Shown here one piece after another: positions 11,197 to 20,142 of a stretch of DNA of 40,951 nucleotides. Numbering within the stretch: position 1 is the first letter of the stretch; every line of letters begins with the position of its first letter. Made by a program: the position numbers and the translations under genes. The stretch lies in the IMG/VR virus record IMGVR_UViG_3300012666_001113, positions 1-40,951 of that record, one strand, 5' to 3'. The notes under the pieces are model-generated. The model was not told the DNA's origin. It searched no databases and worked only from the letters and a program-made list of their open reading frames with translations. The stretch is from a virus.

Positions 11197-12525
11197 TTAG
11201 TAACCTATGTTGGTGTATCCATTACCATAATCATCATCATAAATTGGCTCAAGTTCTTGGAAAGTTAAATCAAGTTGGTATGAAACCATTGCTCCATCTT
11301 CAAAAGACATATATGTTGCTTCTGGAGTGTAATTTACATTACAACTTGTTAATGCACACTCTTTAAATTTATTTAAGTATGGGTGATTTTCTTTCTTAAA
11401 AATGTAAGAAATTGCAAAAGTATGTGGTGTTTGTAATAAAAATGAAGAAGCAGATCTTTTTACTGACATTGCTTGTTTAAATGTTCTAATAATTTTTCTA
11501 ACTATTTCTGCTTCAGTTTTTGAACGTGGTGATAATTTAAAATTAAAAGAAAATTGACGAAGATCTGGAGAATTAAAAAGCAATTCTAAGTTTGGATTGA
11601 TTATCGCACCAAATTCTCTTTGCATTATACCACCTTGACCAATTGCACTTTCAATAAGTTTTGAAACTATTGCGGTTCTTGCTCCACTACCTGGAGCAGA
11701 GATATCTTCTGCTTGTTTCACAAAATCTTTAGACATATCTCCACCCATTATTCCAGTTCTCATCAAACCTGCAAGTGCCCCTTGAAGATCTGGTAAATCC
11801 ATTCCGGACCAATTTACTCTATTACTATCAGATATTCCTCCTGGTATTGGTAATACTATTGTGCCTAATATCTTTCTTTCTTTATTTTTAAATTCTGGTC
11901 TTCCCCCATCAACTGTTACTCTTCTTAAATCTTGATTTCCTGGTCCAAACCCTTTGAGACCCGATTGTTGATATTTGACAATTGAAAATTTTATACAATC
12001 TTGATAATTTAGATTTAAACCCTCTGGATAAACAATGGGTTTGTTTTTTCCATAATCGTCTCTTGATTTTATATTTTTTCTTTCTTCCTCAAAAAAGTTT
12101 CGATTTTCATTTGTTATTGGGTCTCCTATTTTTGTTGAAGTTGCTGTATTAGAAGACCCTGATACTGCTTTAGTTTGTTCTGGTGTTAATCCTTCTTTTT
12201 TAGATGCAGTGTTTATTTGTTGTTGTGTAGTAGTTTTTAGTGCCCCTTCTTTAAGAGACTTTTGAGCATCTGCTCCTAACCAAGGAGTATTTGAAAATGG
12301 TTTATTATTATTTTTCCAATCTCCTGATGTACCAGTGCGTGTTGCTGCTATCACACCATCTCCAATTTTTCCTTCGTAATAAATTATTTCGTGTTTTACA
12401 GAATTTGGATTTATTTTCCCAGTTTCATCTAATGTATATGTTGTTCTTGTTGATGTTGTTATTTCTACTCCTTGAGCACCAACTTTTGTTGTATTTTTAC
12501 CACTTTCTATTGTTTTAGTTGCCAT
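11197..12525 (-). CDS. gp48: Baseplate tail tube cap gp48
   Basis: 442 residues, minus strand, from the ATG whose complement ends at 12525; a GGGGAGGGAG ribosome site precedes it, which decides against the TTG three bases upstream. The first 170 residues are Thr/Lys-rich and low in complexity. The C-terminal 150 residues carry the tube-like fold: NPNLELLFNSPDLRQFSFNF, KLSPRSKTEAEIVRKIIRTF and a final YTPEATYMSF with DLTFQELEPIY. T4 gp48 caps the tail tube on the baseplate together with gp54. It lies one base from gp53. Related tube proteins such as gp54 are the main alternative. Confidence 0.75.
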   Translation of the reverse strand: MATKTIESGKNTTKVGAQGVEITTSTRTTYTLDETGKINPNSVKHEIIYYEGKIGDGVIAATRTGTSGDWKNNNKPFSNTPWLGADAQKSLKEGALKTTTQQQINTASKKEGLTPEQTKAVSGSSNTATSTKIGDPITNENRNFFEEERKNIKSRDDYGKNKPIVYPEGLNLNYQDCIKFSIVKYQQSGLKGFGPGNQDLRRVTVDGGRPEFKNKERKILGTIVLPIPGGISDSNRVNWSGMDLPDLQGALAGLMRTGIMGGDMSKDFVKQAEDISAPGSGARTAIVSKLIESAIGQGGIMQREFGAIINPNLELLFNSPDLRQFSFNFKLSPRSKTEAEIVRKIIRTFKQAMSVKRSASSFLLQTPHTFAISYIFKKENHPYLNKFKECALTSCNVNYTPEATYMSFEDGAMVSYQLDLTFQELEPIYDDDYGNGYTNIGY

Positions 12526-12584
12526 CAAACTCCCTCCCCGTTTACAAGAGGATTAATGATCTCAATTTTTTGTAGAGTATGAGA

Positions 12585-13476: not shown

Positions 13477-14328
13477 ATGGCATCTCCGTCTCCATCAAAG
13501 AAAAGTGTATTCGATATAAAATCAAAAATATTAAGACCTGCACTAACCTCTCATTTTCAGTGTTGGTTCAATCCACCTCAAGCAGTAAAAAACTGGTTGA
13601 AAGAGAGACAAGAAGCTGGTATTGGAGTTGCTTATGAAGGTAATGAAGAATTATTTTCATTACTTTGTTCTGAAACTTCTCTACCCGGATCTTCTTTAGC
13701 AACTTTGGATATTAATAATGATTTTACTGGTGTAACAGAGAGACACGCATATCGTAGAATTTATGATGATAGAATTGATTTTACTTTTTATGTTGATCAC
13801 GATTATAATATAATTAAATTCTTTGAAAATTGGATTGGGTATATTGCAAATGAGCAATATACGGATGAAAATGGTGTAAAAAATAATGCAATAGAACTAC
13901 CAAATTATTCTTATAAAGTGAGATATCCAAATCTTTATAGGACAGAAGTTTATGTTAATAAATTTGAAAGAGATTATAATGGAAGATATATTCGTTATAG
14001 ATTTTTGCAGGCATATCCAATTAGTATACAATCAATGCCTGTGTCTTATGACTCCTCTTCTTTATTAAAATGTACAGTTTCTTTTACTTATACTAGATAT
14101 TTGACTACAGGAGAATTTAATACTGAGTCGCAGAAAAACTTATTTAATAATATAACTGCAGAACAAGCTGCAGCAATTAATGCAGCTTCCTATAATCCAA
14201 ATCTTAATCTTGGAATAGATTATGCAAGATATAATGTAACTGGTGGAGTTAACTATGCTGCTGCATTTGCATCTGGAAATTCTGTCAATATTACTCCAGA
14301 GACTAGTGATTACAGAGATTACAACTAA
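13477..14328 (+). CDS. gp54: Baseplate tail tube initiator gp54
   Basis: 283 residues (T4 gp54 has 320). After a Ser/Lys-rich start, the sequence has the tube-fold pattern: FQCWFNPP, HAYRRIYDDRIDFTFYVD, FFENWIGYI, then YPNLYRTEVYVNKFERD and RFLQAYPISIQSMPVSY with KCTVSFTYTRY. gp54 begins polymerisation of the gp19 tail tube on the gp48-capped baseplate. The ending is Ala/Asn-rich. Divergent from gp4 with only 43 bases between. gp19 or gp48-like proteins share the fold, so the exact number is less sure than the tail-tube family. Confidence 0.7.
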   Translation: MASPSPSKKSVFDIKSKILRPALTSHFQCWFNPPQAVKNWLKERQEAGIGVAYEGNEELFSLLCSETSLPGSSLATLDINNDFTGVTERHAYRRIYDDRIDFTFYVDHDYNIIKFFENWIGYIANEQYTDENGVKNNAIELPNYSYKVRYPNLYRTEVYVNKFERDYNGRYIRYRFLQAYPISIQSMPVSYDSSSLLKCTVSFTYTRYLTTGEFNTESQKNLFNNITAEQAAAINAASYNPNLNLGIDYARYNVTGGVNYAAAFASGNSVNITPETSDYRDYN

Positions 14329-14358: not shown

Positions 14359-15078
14359 ATGCCTTTACCAAAGATTAGTACTCCAACTTATGAAGTTGAA
14401 TTGCCATCAACAGGAGAAACAATTCAATATAGACCTTTTTTAGTTAAAGAAGAAAAAGTATTAGTAATTGCTTTAGAAAGTGAAGACACAAAGCAAATCA
14501 CAAATGCAATCAAAACAGTAATTAAAAATTGTATTTTATCCAAGGGAGTAAAGGTAGAAACACTCCCTACATTTGATATTGAATATTTGTTTCTTAATAT
14601 TCGTGGTAAGTCAGTTGGAGAAGAAATTGAAGTCAATATAATCTGTCCTGATGATGAAGAAACTACAACTACAGTAACTCTTAATTTGGACGATATTAAA
14701 GTCCAAAAGAATGAAGATCACACAAATAAAATTCGTGTAGATAAAAGCATTATGATGGAAATGAAGTATCCATCACTTGAGCAGTTTATTAAAACTAATT
14801 TTGATTCTTCAAATACAAATGCAATGGATCAATCATTTGAATTGATTGCTTCTTGTATTGATAAAATCTATACTGAGGATGAAGTTTGGTCTACTGCTGA
14901 TGTGACTAAAAAAGAACTAAATGAATTTTTAGAACAGATGAACTCATCACAGTTCAAGGAAATTGAAAAGTTCTTTGAAACGATGCCTAAACTTTCTCAT
15001 AAGGTCAAAGTTACAAATCCAAAAACTCAAGTTGAAAGTGAAGTTATTTTAGAAGGGTTAGCATCTTTTTTCGCATAG
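14359..15078 (+). CDS. gp26: Baseplate hub/assembly protein gp26
   Basis: 239 residues, close to T4 gp26 (208) and similar in pattern: MPLPKISTPTYEVELPSTG at the start, YRPFLVKEEKVLVIALES, a central LNIRGKSVGEEIEVNIICP segment, and a C-terminal helical part with EIEKFFETMPKLSH. T4 gp26 is needed to assemble the hub. The last codons contain a TTTTTTC run four bases before the TAG; a -1 shift there would continue without a stop into gp51. This is how tail-assembly chaperones upstream of tape-measure genes are made in many tailed phages. Confidence 0.8.
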   Translation: MPLPKISTPTYEVELPSTGETIQYRPFLVKEEKVLVIALESEDTKQITNAIKTVIKNCILSKGVKVETLPTFDIEYLFLNIRGKSVGEEIEVNIICPDDEETTTTVTLNLDDIKVQKNEDHTNKIRVDKSIMMEMKYPSLEQFIKTNFDSSNTNAMDQSFELIASCIDKIYTEDEVWSTADVTKKELNEFLEQMNSSQFKEIEKFFETMPKLSHKVKVTNPKTQVESEVILEGLASFFA

Positions 15079-15096
15079 CACTGGTTCATATGAACC
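15066..15096 (+). other. Candidate -1 ribosomal frameshift site joining gp26 to gp51
   Basis: The heptamer T-TTT-TTC (15066-15072) is in the right phase for gp26 codons TTT TTC. Ten bases later GGTTC-ATAT-GAACC (15083-15096) can fold into a 5-bp stem-loop. The -1 frame is open from the heptamer through 15269, giving a predicted 303-residue fusion. The stem also traps the gp51 ATG at 15090. Confidence 0.55.
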
Positions 15097-15269
15097 TTGA
15101 AAGCTATTTTCGTCTCAACTTTGCCTTGATGCAGTACCATAAATACTCATTAACGGAGATTGAAAATATGATGCCTTGGGAACGAGACATCTATGTTGAA
15201 TTGTTAATGCAGCATCTGGAAGAAGAAAAAACAAAACAACAGCAAGTAAATGGCACTCAATTCTTCTAA
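15090..15269 (+). CDS. gp51: Small hub-assembly protein gp51
   Basis: 59 residues from the ATG at 15090, 11 bases after the gp26 stop and overlapping the next gene by 20 bases. It reads MNLESYFRLNFALMQYHKYS, then IENMMPWERDIYVELLMQHL and a Lys/Gln tail. The MMPWERDIYV pattern fits the short T4 gp51-like or chaperone C-terminal extensions found just before tape-measure genes. No Shine-Dalgarno sequence precedes the ATG, which lies in a small hairpin. It may be made mainly as a -1 frameshift extension of gp26. Confidence 0.7.
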   Translation: MNLESYFRLNFALMQYHKYSLTEIENMMPWERDIYVELLMQHLEEEKTKQQQVNGTQFF

Positions 15270-17334
15270 AATTGTACCAGTATCAAAACCGAAGAATGGT
15301 CGTGCCTTAGTTGATGAGAAGATAGACGAAAGGATACTAAGATTACTTGGTCTTGAAGGTGTTTTTGATATTGATTATGATACTTATGCATCTCTTCTCA
15401 AAGAGAGGATGGGTTCTGCAAGAATGAGAAAGCAGACTCTTCCAACAGAAGAAGTTGAATTACTTACAAATGAATGGAAAAAAATAAAGGGTAAGAAAGG
15501 TAGATTTAAAGTCAAAAAGATTACTGCAGAAAGTTTTAAAAAGGGCACTGCAGTTGGAATGAATTTGGGAAAACAAAAATTTCTTGGTGGCATAAAACCA
15601 CTAGCACTTCCTCAAGCAACAGATAAGATGGTTGGGAAAAATGATATTCAAGAAATTATAGATTTACTTGCAGAAATTATTAAAAATCTAACACAACAGA
15701 ATAAAATACAAAAAGATTCAAACGAGAGAGAAAGAAAAGAAAGTGAAAACGTAAAGAGAGCACTAGCTGAATCAAAGTTAGAAAAAGGATTTGCTCTTGC
15801 GATTAAAACGGCAGAAAAAGTTATCGCTCCTGTGAAGTCAATGCTCAGTAGAATCATTGACTTCTTTATGGCTATTTTCTTTGGTAAAGTTTTTCTCAAG
15901 TTATTAGATTGGTTTGCTGATCCAGAAAACAAGAAAAAGATTAATTCTTTGTTTAGATTTTTTGGTGACCATTGGCCAAAACTTCTTGCACTTTACCTTA
16001 GATTTGGAACAGGATTTGGTAAGTTTGTTGGTGGATTGACAAATCTGGTATTTTTTGGAGCAAGAAAGTTGCTTCAAATTGTTGCTCAAATGGTGGGAGC
16101 AAAAGGAGCAGCAAAATTTCTTGGAGGTAAAGGTGGTAAATTAGTTGCAGCAGGATTATCAGTTGCTACGACAGTTGGAACCACAATGGCTCTAAGTAAA
16201 GGAATAGAAAATTTTGCGGGACAGGGTGAAGATAAGCAACCAAAAATACCCACATTTAAAGGTGGTGGATTTGCGAATTTTAAAAACTTGTTTGGGATGT
16301 TTGGTAATGGTTCTCTTAGTTCTGGATATGTAAGTGGAGAAAAGGGTGTAGATAAAGTTCCTGCAATGTTAAGTGATGGTGAATTTGTAATGTCTCGTGG
16401 TGCTGTTGAAAAATATGGTGTGAATACTTTAGAAGCAATGAATGCTGCGGGTGGTGGTACAAATAGACCGAAAATGATTAGTGGGACCACATATGCTGCT
16501 GGTGGAGGAATGATTGGAGGTTCTCCTGATTTTTGGAAGATAGCAGCACTTGCATCAAAAGAGGATAGCATAAATCCTCAGGGTCAGGCGGATGTGGCAC
16601 AGTCAATATACAATCGTATTAATCTTGGATCTTATCCTGGTGGAAAAAGTATTTCTGCGGTAATTACTGCTCCAGGTCAGTATCAACCCACTTTTTCTAA
16701 TCCATCTAAGTGGAAATCAATAAAAGATAGGGTTTCTGCAATCAATGCTACTGGTAATGAAAAAAAGATTGATATGGCTGCTAAATCAATTACAAATCCA
16801 GCATTACAAAGAGAATCTGCAAAATTTGTTGGTGGAAGAACTGATTTTCAGGGAGAAAGTCAGAAAAAATATATGAAACCTTCCGATGTTACCCGAGGTA
16901 AAAGTCATAATTTCTTTGGGTGGTTTTATGATGCAAAATTACCAAAACCTGCACCAATACCCAATATAGTTTCTTCTCAATCCAAACAAATTCAAACTCC
17001 TCCTATGAAACCAGATATGAATGGGAGTAAAAATCAACCAAACATTATAGAGAGAGTTAAAAACTTTATTTTTAGTCCATCACAACCAAAAGAACCAAGG
17101 TATGCTCAAGGTGGAATGGTGCAGTCACCAATGCAATTAACGAAAATGCCTTTAAGAGCAAAAAATATTACTCCTCCATCTGCTCCACCTGTACTTGTTT
17201 CTACGACAAATAAAACAAGTACTGCAATGCCATCTATACCGTCATCACCTGGTGTTCCAAAAGCTCCATCATTTAATTCTATTCATAGTAATAATGAAAG
17301 AAAGAGAATACTTGCAATTCACGGAGTAGCATAA
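15250..17334 (+). CDS. Tape-measure-like tail protein with SleB-like hydrolase domain
   Basis: 694 residues. A charged coiled-coil-like segment covers about 130-180. Hydrophobic segments follow at 201-222 (IIDFFMAIFFGKVFLKLLDW), about 260-285 and 297-318. A tape-measure motif GEKGVDKVPAMLSDGEFVMS starts at 364. A domain at 428-560 resembles cell-wall hydrolase SleB: KEDS with ADVAQSIYNRI, then VITAPGQYQPTF and a final GWFY. The C-terminal part is Pro-rich. The position after gp26/gp51 and before the hub fits a protein that sets tail length and enters the envelope during injection. The T4 counterpart would be gp29, but sequence alone does not prove that. Confidence 0.7.
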   Translation: MALNSSKIVPVSKPKNGRALVDEKIDERILRLLGLEGVFDIDYDTYASLLKERMGSARMRKQTLPTEEVELLTNEWKKIKGKKGRFKVKKITAESFKKGTAVGMNLGKQKFLGGIKPLALPQATDKMVGKNDIQEIIDLLAEIIKNLTQQNKIQKDSNERERKESENVKRALAESKLEKGFALAIKTAEKVIAPVKSMLSRIIDFFMAIFFGKVFLKLLDWFADPENKKKINSLFRFFGDHWPKLLALYLRFGTGFGKFVGGLTNLVFFGARKLLQIVAQMVGAKGAAKFLGGKGGKLVAAGLSVATTVGTTMALSKGIENFAGQGEDKQPKIPTFKGGGFANFKNLFGMFGNGSLSSGYVSGEKGVDKVPAMLSDGEFVMSRGAVEKYGVNTLEAMNAAGGGTNRPKMISGTTYAAGGGMIGGSPDFWKIAALASKEDSINPQGQADVAQSIYNRINLGSYPGGKSISAVITAPGQYQPTFSNPSKWKSIKDRVSAINATGNEKKIDMAAKSITNPALQRESAKFVGGRTDFQGESQKKYMKPSDVTRGKSHNFFGWFYDAKLPKPAPIPNIVSSQSKQIQTPPMKPDMNGSKNQPNIIERVKNFIFSPSQPKEPRYAQGGMVQSPMQLTKMPLRAKNITPPSAPPVLVSTTNKTSTAMPSIPSSPGVPKAPSFNSIHSNNERKRILAIHGVA

Positions 17335-17343
17335 TCAAAACCT

Positions 17344-20142
17344 ATGGAACCTAAAGCACTTCCGCCTGCAAAAATTAATCCAACAAAACTTTTAAGAGGA
17401 AGTTCTTTAATACCCACTGTAAAAAGGATTAGTGCTAAGTCAGTTGTTGATGGTAATAAGTCTTTTGAATTGCGTATTATTAAAAGACAAGTAATTCAAA
17501 TTAGCAATTTAATCAAAACAAATACACTATTAAAATCAAAAGAAGAAGAAAAAAAGAAAAAAGAAAGTGAGAAAAAAAGATTTTCGGAGAAAGAAAAAAA
17601 ACTTGAAAAACCAAAAGAGGGCAAAAGTGATACAATCAAATTGCCTTCATTACCTCGTTTAGGTTTTCTTGATAGAATTAAGAAGTTTTTATTTAATATA
17701 TTTCTTGGTTATATTTCACTTCGTTTATTACCGTATCTTCCAAAACTTGCAGGAGTTGTTGGTACAATTGTAAAAGTTCAGGATACTGTGATTGATGTAT
17801 CTGGTAAAATCTTAAATGGTTTGGTTTCCTTTGTTGATAAGGCATATGAGGTTCACGACAAAACAAGAAAATTTTTAGGAAATCTTGGAGGAGAAAACTT
17901 TACCAAAGCATTTGATGGATTTATTGGTGCGATGGATAAAGTCATCACAGCATCAATTATTGCTGCGATTGCTTTTGGTGAACTTCGTGATGTGAGTGGT
18001 CCTGATGTTGCAACAAAAACTGGAAAAGGAATTATTGGTAGAGGAATTGGGAGATCGGCAAAAAGACTTGGATTAAAACTTATTGGAAAAGATGCAACAA
18101 AACAAATTTTAAGATTTATAAAACCGATTGCTGGAAAAGCACCTATAATTGGAGGACTGCTTGAATTTGGTATTTCTTGGGCACTTGGTGATCCAGTTGG
18201 TAAGGCAGCATTTAGAGGAATAGGTGCAGGTCTTTTAGGTGCAATTGGTACTGCTATCGGAGGTCCTATTGGTCTTGCAATTGGTGGATATGCTGGAGGT
18301 GAACTTGGAGGTGTTCTTTATGATGTTCTGTTTGGAAACAAACAACCAACAAAATCAAAAATTCAAGGACGTGCTCAAGGTGGTCAGGTTACAAGAGGTG
18401 GAAAATATACTGGTCCAATCAAAAGAACTATAAAAAAAACACCACCAAGAACTTTAAAAGTAAAACCAACAGAAGTTAAACCAGGCCAATCTGTTGGTGG
18501 TAAGGATAAGATTAAAAAAATATTCCCTGGAGATGAGTCAAAAGATCAATCAAAAAATGTAAATCCACTTGGTTATATGAAGAGTTCTTATAAGACAGCA
18601 TCTTCAACACCAGGATTAGGTGGATTGTTTGGTATTATGATGAAGGCACAACTTGGTGAAAGACCATCTAGTGTAGATTATCAAAGTGCGGCAGATGGAT
18701 TAACTGCTTGGATGCAGAGAACTGTTGGTGGGGGAATTCAAAGAACTGTAGGTGCATTTGCTCAAGGTGGAGAAGTTGATGCTGGAATGTTTAGCAATAG
18801 TACGGATATGAAAAATGTAATTGCAAAAGCACTTCAAGATAGTGTTACTCCTAAAGTTGATGATATACTTAATGATTTGAAGAGGCAGATTGAACTTAAA
18901 GCAATTGAAGGTAAAGCAAAGGAGGGAGCAACACTCTCACCAGAGGAGGGAGAGTTTTCGGTTAGTGGTGGTACGGAAGATTTTTGGACTTTGGTTGCAG
19001 TTGCATCAAGAGAAGATGCCGACCCCCAGGGAAGTGCTGATGTTGCACAAACAATTTATAATCGTCTTGCATCTGGTGCATATACTGGAAAGACAATTAA
19101 ACAACTCATAACAGCAAGAAACCAATATCAACCAACTTGGGATTATCCAAATGGACCTACTCAAGGAAGTGGTAATCCAAATCCAGAGTGGTTGGCCATT
19201 CGAGATGCAGAATCAGCTGCTGCAGCTGCTGGTATGGAAGTTGGTGCAATAAAAAAAGTTGCAGCAAACATATTAGATCCTACGTTACAAAAAAATGCTA
19301 GAGATTTTATACAAGGAAGAACTGATTTCAAGGCACAAGGACAAGGTGTAACTGGTATCAGTAGATCTGCAAGAGGAAATGTTTTTGGATGGCATTATAA
19401 TTATAAAGAAAATAAAATTGCAAGTGTTCCTAATTTTGGTGCCACTGTTGCATCTCGTCCTGGTGGAGGTTTTGATATTAAACTAGGAACAAGTAAATTT
19501 GGTATTGTAGAGTACATAACTGGTGATAAATCTCATCCAAATTTTGAGTTGTCGGGTCACGGGCTTCCCAGTAATTATCACGATCATATTGCTTTCTCTA
19601 ATATTCAAGAAAAGGAGATGGCAAAAAAATTACTCTCATCTTTTGGAATTAAAATAGGAAGTGAACTTCGTCCTGGAGATCCAGGATATCACGGAAAAAA
19701 TTTGGCGATTGATATACCAGGGTATCAGTGGGGTGGAACTGGATCTATTGGTGAAAAGGAATATGCAGGTTCTAGAAAAGTTAGACAAATTTTAGGAATC
19801 GGAAGTCAAAAATTTGAAAAAGGTGGAAAAGTTCACGGTTTCACTAGAGCAATACTTGGAGAAAAAGGTCCAGAGTTTGTAATTGATGCTGATTCAACCA
19901 GAGCACTGGAAGAAAACTATCCTGGTTTCTTGAATGCATTAAATAAATCAAATTATCAAGGAGCATTGAATGTAATAAGAAGTTATGCTTCTTATGAACA
20001 AGGTGCAACAATTCGTGCGATTGTAGATGAGAAGTTAATTCCTGTTCCAATCCCTGTTGGTTCTTCTCAACAATCTTCAATGATGGTGTCTATATTTGAT
20101 GAAGTAGAAGATTATATGGCATCAAGTTATAAGGGTAAATAA
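17344..20142 (+). CDS. Second tape-measure-like tail protein with SleB-like and peptidase-like domains
   Basis: 932 residues, nine bases after the first tape-measure-like gene and organised like it. A Lys/Glu coiled coil (about 60-100) is followed by hydrophobic segments at 108-145, 196-215 and 293-332 (Gly-rich). Domain 547-685 is a second SleB-like copy (SREDADPQGSADVAQTIYNR, RNQYQPTW, GWHYNY). Residues about 710-820 hold NYHDHIAF and YHGKNLAIDIPG, reminiscent of M15-type DD-peptidases. A tape-measure motif ILGEKGPEFVIDAD is near 830. Together the two genes look like a duplicated or split tape measure with wall-cutting activities. The peptidase call is tentative. Confidence 0.65.
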   Translation: MEPKALPPAKINPTKLLRGSSLIPTVKRISAKSVVDGNKSFELRIIKRQVIQISNLIKTNTLLKSKEEEKKKKESEKKRFSEKEKKLEKPKEGKSDTIKLPSLPRLGFLDRIKKFLFNIFLGYISLRLLPYLPKLAGVVGTIVKVQDTVIDVSGKILNGLVSFVDKAYEVHDKTRKFLGNLGGENFTKAFDGFIGAMDKVITASIIAAIAFGELRDVSGPDVATKTGKGIIGRGIGRSAKRLGLKLIGKDATKQILRFIKPIAGKAPIIGGLLEFGISWALGDPVGKAAFRGIGAGLLGAIGTAIGGPIGLAIGGYAGGELGGVLYDVLFGNKQPTKSKIQGRAQGGQVTRGGKYTGPIKRTIKKTPPRTLKVKPTEVKPGQSVGGKDKIKKIFPGDESKDQSKNVNPLGYMKSSYKTASSTPGLGGLFGIMMKAQLGERPSSVDYQSAADGLTAWMQRTVGGGIQRTVGAFAQGGEVDAGMFSNSTDMKNVIAKALQDSVTPKVDDILNDLKRQIELKAIEGKAKEGATLSPEEGEFSVSGGTEDFWTLVAVASREDADPQGSADVAQTIYNRLASGAYTGKTIKQLITARNQYQPTWDYPNGPTQGSGNPNPEWLAIRDAESAAAAAGMEVGAIKKVAANILDPTLQKNARDFIQGRTDFKAQGQGVTGISRSARGNVFGWHYNYKENKIASVPNFGATVASRPGGGFDIKLGTSKFGIVEYITGDKSHPNFELSGHGLPSNYHDHIAFSNIQEKEMAKKLLSSFGIKIGSELRPGDPGYHGKNLAIDIPGYQWGGTGSIGEKEYAGSRKVRQILGIGSQKFEKGGKVHGFTRAILGEKGPEFVIDADSTRALEENYPGFLNALNKSNYQGALNVIRSYASYEQGATIRAIVDEKLIPVPIPVGSSQQSSMMVSIFDEVEDYMASSYKGK

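Follow-up and report, generated by a model that had tools for sequence, protein, structure and literature searches.

Tail assembly chaperones of lambda and T4-like phages

The G/GT tail assembly chaperones of phage lambda are made as a short product and a -1 frameshift product, in which the extra C-terminal domain links the tape measure with the tail-tube protein (PMC5009743). Among T4-like phages, tail assembly chaperones were identified by Vladimirov, Gautam & Davidson (Virology 2022;566:9-15), as cited in PMC10885494 and PMC12846349; the former mentions some T4-like phages in which a short gene and a longer, fused one take the place of frameshifting, and the latter speaks of polyT -1 frameshift signals known in TAC-N genes of T4-like phages. 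PMC12846349 also describes, for phage Adele and Vandenendeviridae / Andersonviridae, a conserved -1 shift at the polyT motif GTTTTT at the end of TAC-N, and states that the extension is usually misannotated as a hypothetical gene in these families. PMC3004832 describes T4 gp51 as an essential protein that has no known function and is missing from the finished particle, a description that fits a chaperone role. The core idea of frameshifted T4-like tail-assembly chaperones is already known, and the cyanophage case described here is a well-supported addition to it. Vladimirov and colleagues reportedly name 26 and 51 as the T4 genes and find frameshifting retained in several groups of T4-like phages.

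The cyanophage locus resembles lambda G/GT in its short form and its predicted -1 long form with an added C-terminal domain, and probably also in gene order, which in lambda runs from tail tube to chaperone to tape measure and here from a tail-tube-type gene through the chaperone gene to candidate tape-measure genes. It differs in that the lambda slippery heptamer is not the cyanophage T_TTT_TTC, that covarying downstream hairpins are a feature of the cyanophages, and that no sequence homology has been shown between the two systems. The T4-like chaperones of Vladimirov and colleagues belong to the same gene families as cyanophage gp26/gp51, whereas Vandenendeviridae / Andersonviridae are other phage families which use another slippery motif and for which no hairpin is described in the passages of PMC12846349 consulted. 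A search for published peptide, ribosome-profiling or reporter support for a cyanophage fusion found none, profiling papers being judged by their titles and the opening lines of their abstracts.

The gp26-gp51 junction in the window

The window, which is the whole stretch of 40,951 nucleotides analysed (IMG/VR record IMGVR_UViG_3300012666_001113), carries genes for photosystem II D1, PhoH, thymidylate synthase and single-strand DNA binding protein along with T4-type baseplate genes, and is a fragment of a cyanophage (marine T4-like virus). The features around the junction are listed below.

13477 to 14328, + strand: upstream tail-tube-type gene (PF23849, E 1.5e-15; phrog_45, E 5e-36)
14359 to 15078, + strand: gp26 ORF, the predicted short chaperone form (TAC-N), 239 aa (PF12322 T4_baseplate, E 2.9e-77; phrog_150)
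15066 to 15072, + strand: slippery heptamer T_TTT_TTC (in-phase T6 heptamer in 235/240 distinct junctions)
15072 to 15269, + strand: -1 frame extension, 65 codons and TAA, the predicted C-terminal domain of the long form (TAC-NC)
15076 to 15078, + strand: zero-frame stop TAG ending the short form, one codon past the heptamer
15083 to 15096, + strand: RNA hairpin GGTTC-ATAT-GAACC, 10 nt past the heptamer and a likely stimulator of frameshifting
15090 to 15092, + strand: ATG, the conventional start of gp51, which is probably just a Met codon inside the frame (88/235 relatives without an ATG among the first ten -1 codons)
15250 to 17334, + strand: candidate tape-measure protein 1, 694 aa (weak matches to phrog_25241 and phrog_3547, tail length tape measure)
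17344 to 20142, + strand: candidate second tape-measure / hub-lysozyme-like protein, 932 aa, proposed from its position

The 3' codons of gp26 are TCT (15064-66), TTT (67-69), TTC (70-72), GCA (73-75) and TAG (76-78), and these confirm that the heptamer T_TTT_TTC is correctly phased for a -1 slip, as an earlier sequence-only reading of this DNA had claimed. The heptamer has the X_XXY_YYZ form of a -1 programmed ribosomal frameshift site and stands in phase with gp26. The distance to the TAG, which that reading had given as four bases, is actually three bases (one codon). Its open -1 frame through 15269 was borne out: after a tandem slip, reading from 15072 passes through CGC ATA GCA CTG GTT CAT ATG and covers 65 codons before it meets the TAA at 15267-15269, which yields the predicted fusion of 303 residues (238+65).

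The short form falls in the gp26/gp51 family (PF12322), and in profile alignment the long form would consist of the short form plus an extra C-terminal domain, labelled gene 51 in relatives; the annotated gp51 part of the -1 frame matches phrog_634 with E 1e-26 in a profile search. NCBIfam has no model for the gp26/gp51 proteins. When an AlphaFold2 model of gp26 (pLDDT 86) was searched against PDB with Foldseek, the only matches with probability >0.5 were to the HK97 tail assembly chaperone 2OB9 (0.63 and 0.69), with E 0.8-1.7, which is below significance, and about 60 residues aligned; the structural likeness of the modelled gp26 to the HK97 protein is suggestive only. In its family, its two-form design and its location after a tail-tube-type gene the locus agrees with known tail assembly chaperones, lambda G/GT among them.

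We propose with high confidence that gp26 and 'gp51' form one gene, from which two tail-assembly chaperones are predicted to be made through a -1 slip probably aided by the hairpin; the comparison thereby supports the frameshift and fusion put forward in the sequence-only reading. The heptamer, its phase, the open frame, the coding constraint at the junction, the missing starts, the covarying hairpin and the homology to T4 gp26/gp51 are all observed in the sequences, and from them we infer the occurrence of slippage, its efficiency and the chaperone role. Most ribosomes would end at the TAG at 15076 and release the short form, TAC-N, of 239 aa. A minority, with tRNA-Phe in the P and A sites on T_TTT_TTC, would move back by one base (TTT TTC to TTT TTT) and go on to complete the 303-aa long form, TAC-NC, the extra domain of which would be the gp51 of the annotators. 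Ribosomes on the heptamer are probably held up by the hairpin that lies 10 nt further on, which would contribute to the ratio of the two forms. Lambda G/GT serves as the model for their roles: the short form would cover the tape-measure protein, and the extra domain would bring in subunits of the tail tube.

Conservation of the slippery site

Relatives of gp26 were gathered by IMG/VR searches with five different seeds and joined with 18 annotated isolates, which gave 240 distinct junctions. The heptamer was present in every junction of the first set read, and over the full collection the 235 in-phase T6 sites comprised 216 of TTTTTTC and 19 of TTTTTTT. The codon preceding TTT ends in T in 235/235 sites and may encode Ser, Asp, Ala, Asn, Gly or Thr, against a background of T-ending codons in the same genes of 59% for Ser and 35% for Ala, and 92% of sites use TTC for the second Phe vs 25% in the gene body. 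The gap between heptamer and stop is one codon in 200/235 junctions, and all of the 231 relatives with a visible end have a -1 frame that stays open for 164-206 nt. Phages of Pelagibacter, Vibrio (KVP40-like), Aeromonas (65), Stenotrophomonas and Pseudomonas are among those that keep the heptamer. The alignment of junctions, which had been proposed as a check, showed conservation of heptamer, spacing and open -1 frame across Kyanoviridae and other T4-like groups.

The site is more than a chance occurrence because the T6 heptamer is in place in nearly all of these junctions, whereas counts within the window are by themselves suggestive only: TTTTTTC occurs six times on the + strand, only the copy at 15066 being in phase within an ORF that reaches 100 aa or more, and among the phased heptamers listed the longest open -1 extension belongs to this site (65 codons; the next are 47 and 44). 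Conservation in homologues, codon choice and the window-wide heptamer counts rule out a chance heptamer. In the baseplate tail tube cap gene (ORF 11197-12528) we noticed a phased A_AAA_AAC at 12049 on the - strand with 44 open -1 codons, which is probably due to chance.

The five junctions lacking T6 are four of Ackermannviridae type and one apparent in-frame fusion. Phages of Ackermannviridae type (CBA120, T751, Dickeya RC-2014, Vibrio YC and others; L279-L284, L090-L093), for which six isolates of this or related type were taken from GenBank records and further relatives sought in IMG/VR were not found, have an open coding -1 frame and no T6 heptamer, and in their gp26 ends a T precedes the last Phe codon (NTT TTY or GCT TTC). 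Since neither CBA120 nor T751 has a start codon at the junction, these phages are likely to use a -1 shift of a non-canonical kind. In the in-frame case (L152, IMGVR_UViG_3300049043_000112) a 2-nt deletion at the heptamer joins gp26 and gp51 in one open frame of 299 aa with a single PF12322 copy, which is either an assembly error or a phage that would make the short form by a +1 slip on TTT-T, with GGT TAG following. Rhizobium phage RHph_N34 (L281) has, at the corresponding position, T_TTT_TTG in place of T_TTT_TTC, and its -1 frame is open.

Hairpins downstream of the heptamer

The hairpin GGTTC-ATAT-GAACC, said in the sequence-only reading to begin ten bases past the heptamer and to cover the ATG at 15090, is indeed present at 15083-15096. 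Within the clade of the window it shows compensatory changes in 5/5 pairs with 86% of cells paired, and its stem (15083-15087 with 15092-15096) is the top covarying 5-bp stem among all those tested. Shuffles reached its covariation score in 0/500 cases, and when the 65 nt past the heptamer were folded the mean was -12.8 kcal/mol vs -9.2 in shuffles that preserved every amino acid and each column's codons (z -25), two control stretches farther downstream being also below zero (z -6.6 and -5.2); these z and covariation figures are not probabilities, as the shuffle controls leave phylogenetic relatedness in. A sister clade (P-SSM2-like) has an 11-bp hairpin which begins 5 nt after the heptamer, and in one of its pairs, read as T-A in 16, G-C in 13 and A-T in 11 sequences, the silent third position of an Ala codon changes together with a non-silent base. 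Downstream RNA structure, which is common and not obligatory at -1 programmed frameshift sites, is thus represented here by covarying hairpins.

It may be argued that the hairpin is a by-product of coding constraint with no frameshift role, the heptamer being sufficient by itself. This would agree with the variation in hairpin position and length from clade to clade and with the lack of an evident hairpin in some relatives, e.g. in the fold of L017; the window hairpin is itself short (5 bp), and its spacer is 10 nt vs 5 nt in the sister clade. However, we consider it unlikely, since the stability exceeds that of codon shuffles which keep the amino acids, the covariation beats all shuffles in two clades of differing geometry, and the silent Ala base of the second clade follows its partner over three pair types. 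The hairpin at 15083-15096 is, in our reading, a likely frameshift stimulator, and the covarying hairpins as a whole offer concrete candidates for this function. From the literature searched they are apparently an RNA element not previously reported, and possibly known elsewhere.

The 5' end of 'gp51'

Cyanophage genomes are routinely given a gp26 'baseplate hub' and a gp51 'hub assembly catalyst' as two genes, and the annotated records read, RefSeq cyanophages included, show gp26 and, where annotated, gp51 as separate features (Aeromonas 65.2, CBA120 and T751 carry no gp51 annotation). A separate gene that starts from the ATG at 15090, whether through a ribosome site of its own or because its translation is coupled to the termination of gp26, would agree with the separate ORF that follows gp26 in all 18 annotated records except Aeromonas 65.2, and the window does have the ATG. 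Against it, 88/235 junctions lack an ATG among the first ten -1 codons; the codon at the ATG position is TTG in L058, ATT in L070 and AAT in L054 and L060, and the next Met in ATG-less relatives is often within the conserved FALMQ(H/Y)HKYSL motif. Furthermore, the -1 codons between heptamer and annotated ATG show conservation at the protein level (R-I/L/V-A/G/S-L/M-x-H), codon 6, upstream of the ATG, being His in 220/235, so that the overlapping -1 frame is a conserved coding sequence, open in 231/231, already 5' of the ATG. As the sequence-only reading had stated, no Shine-Dalgarno-like sequence lies ahead of 15090. A separate gene would also leave unexplained the frozen heptamer and the full-length homology of T4 gp51 across the junction, and we regard it as very improbable; an independent gp51 start is rejected on account of the ATG-less relatives and the conserved upstream -1 codons.

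Given these missing starts and conserved codons, gp51 is no independent gene, and as far as sequence comparison can tell it is the C-terminal part of the fusion. The data point to one frameshifted gene, and therefore the annotation and the gp51 start site would be wrong in many records. The count of start-less gp51 was not found in the literature searched and may be known elsewhere. Least probable of all is fusion by transcriptional slippage on the T run instead of by ribosomes, for although the site is a homopolymer of six T (seven in 19/235 relatives), six T is short for polymerase slippage, the run is held at T6C against a codon bias favouring a longer one (TTC 92% vs 25%), and exact -1 phasing of the heptamer with a covarying downstream hairpin are hallmarks of ribosomal frameshifting.

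Two genes in T4

The sequence-only reading had extended the G/GT model from this frameshifted gene to T4 gp26 and gp51. The assignment of a chaperone role agrees with prior work and is not a new finding, but the frameshift does not carry over: with its genes 26 and 51 on opposite strands, T4 cannot use a gp26/gp51 frameshift. Both T4 proteins match PF12322. The alignment of the fused cyanophage profile to T4 gp51 covers residues 13-244 and runs across the frameshift junction (E 1.6e-9), whereas the alignment of T4 gp26 to it stops at the junction (E 2.4e-16), and phrog_634 is common to the T4 gp51-type long form and the cyanophage extension. Judged from these alignments, T4 gp26 and gp51 are paralogues and the counterparts of the short and fused forms, respectively.

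T4 has two PF12322 copies and each of the 19 other records searched has one. Some Straboviridae, namely Vibrio KVP40-like phages and Aeromonas 65.2, retain the heptamer and have a single PF12322 copy. A fossil T6 site is absent from T4 gene 26, the end of which reads GAG TTC TTT GAG TTA CTA TAA. The most economical reading, with its direction taken from comparison and not from a tree, would be that the T4 lineage swapped frameshifting for duplication. One frameshifted gene against two duplicated genes in T4 makes a natural experiment on the need for both chaperone forms. We think it rather likely that in marine T4-like phages the hairpin sets the short:long ratio, its geometry shifting under compensatory selection, and that T4 and close relatives use gene duplication instead.

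Neighbouring open reading frames

The chaperone gene is adjoined upstream by a clear tail-tube-type gene, and tape-measure matches downstream are weak. ORF 15250-17334 shares 20 nt with the end of the -1 frame, and ORF 17344-20142 has profile matches only to phrog_35997 (unknown function) and phrog_12490 (endolysin); that both are tape-measure proteins is plausible and weakly supported by profiles. Each of these two adjacent large ORFs also has a similar sub-threshold Hydrolase_2 (cell wall hydrolase) region, which suggests that the pair are tandem paralogues with a common lysozyme-like module.
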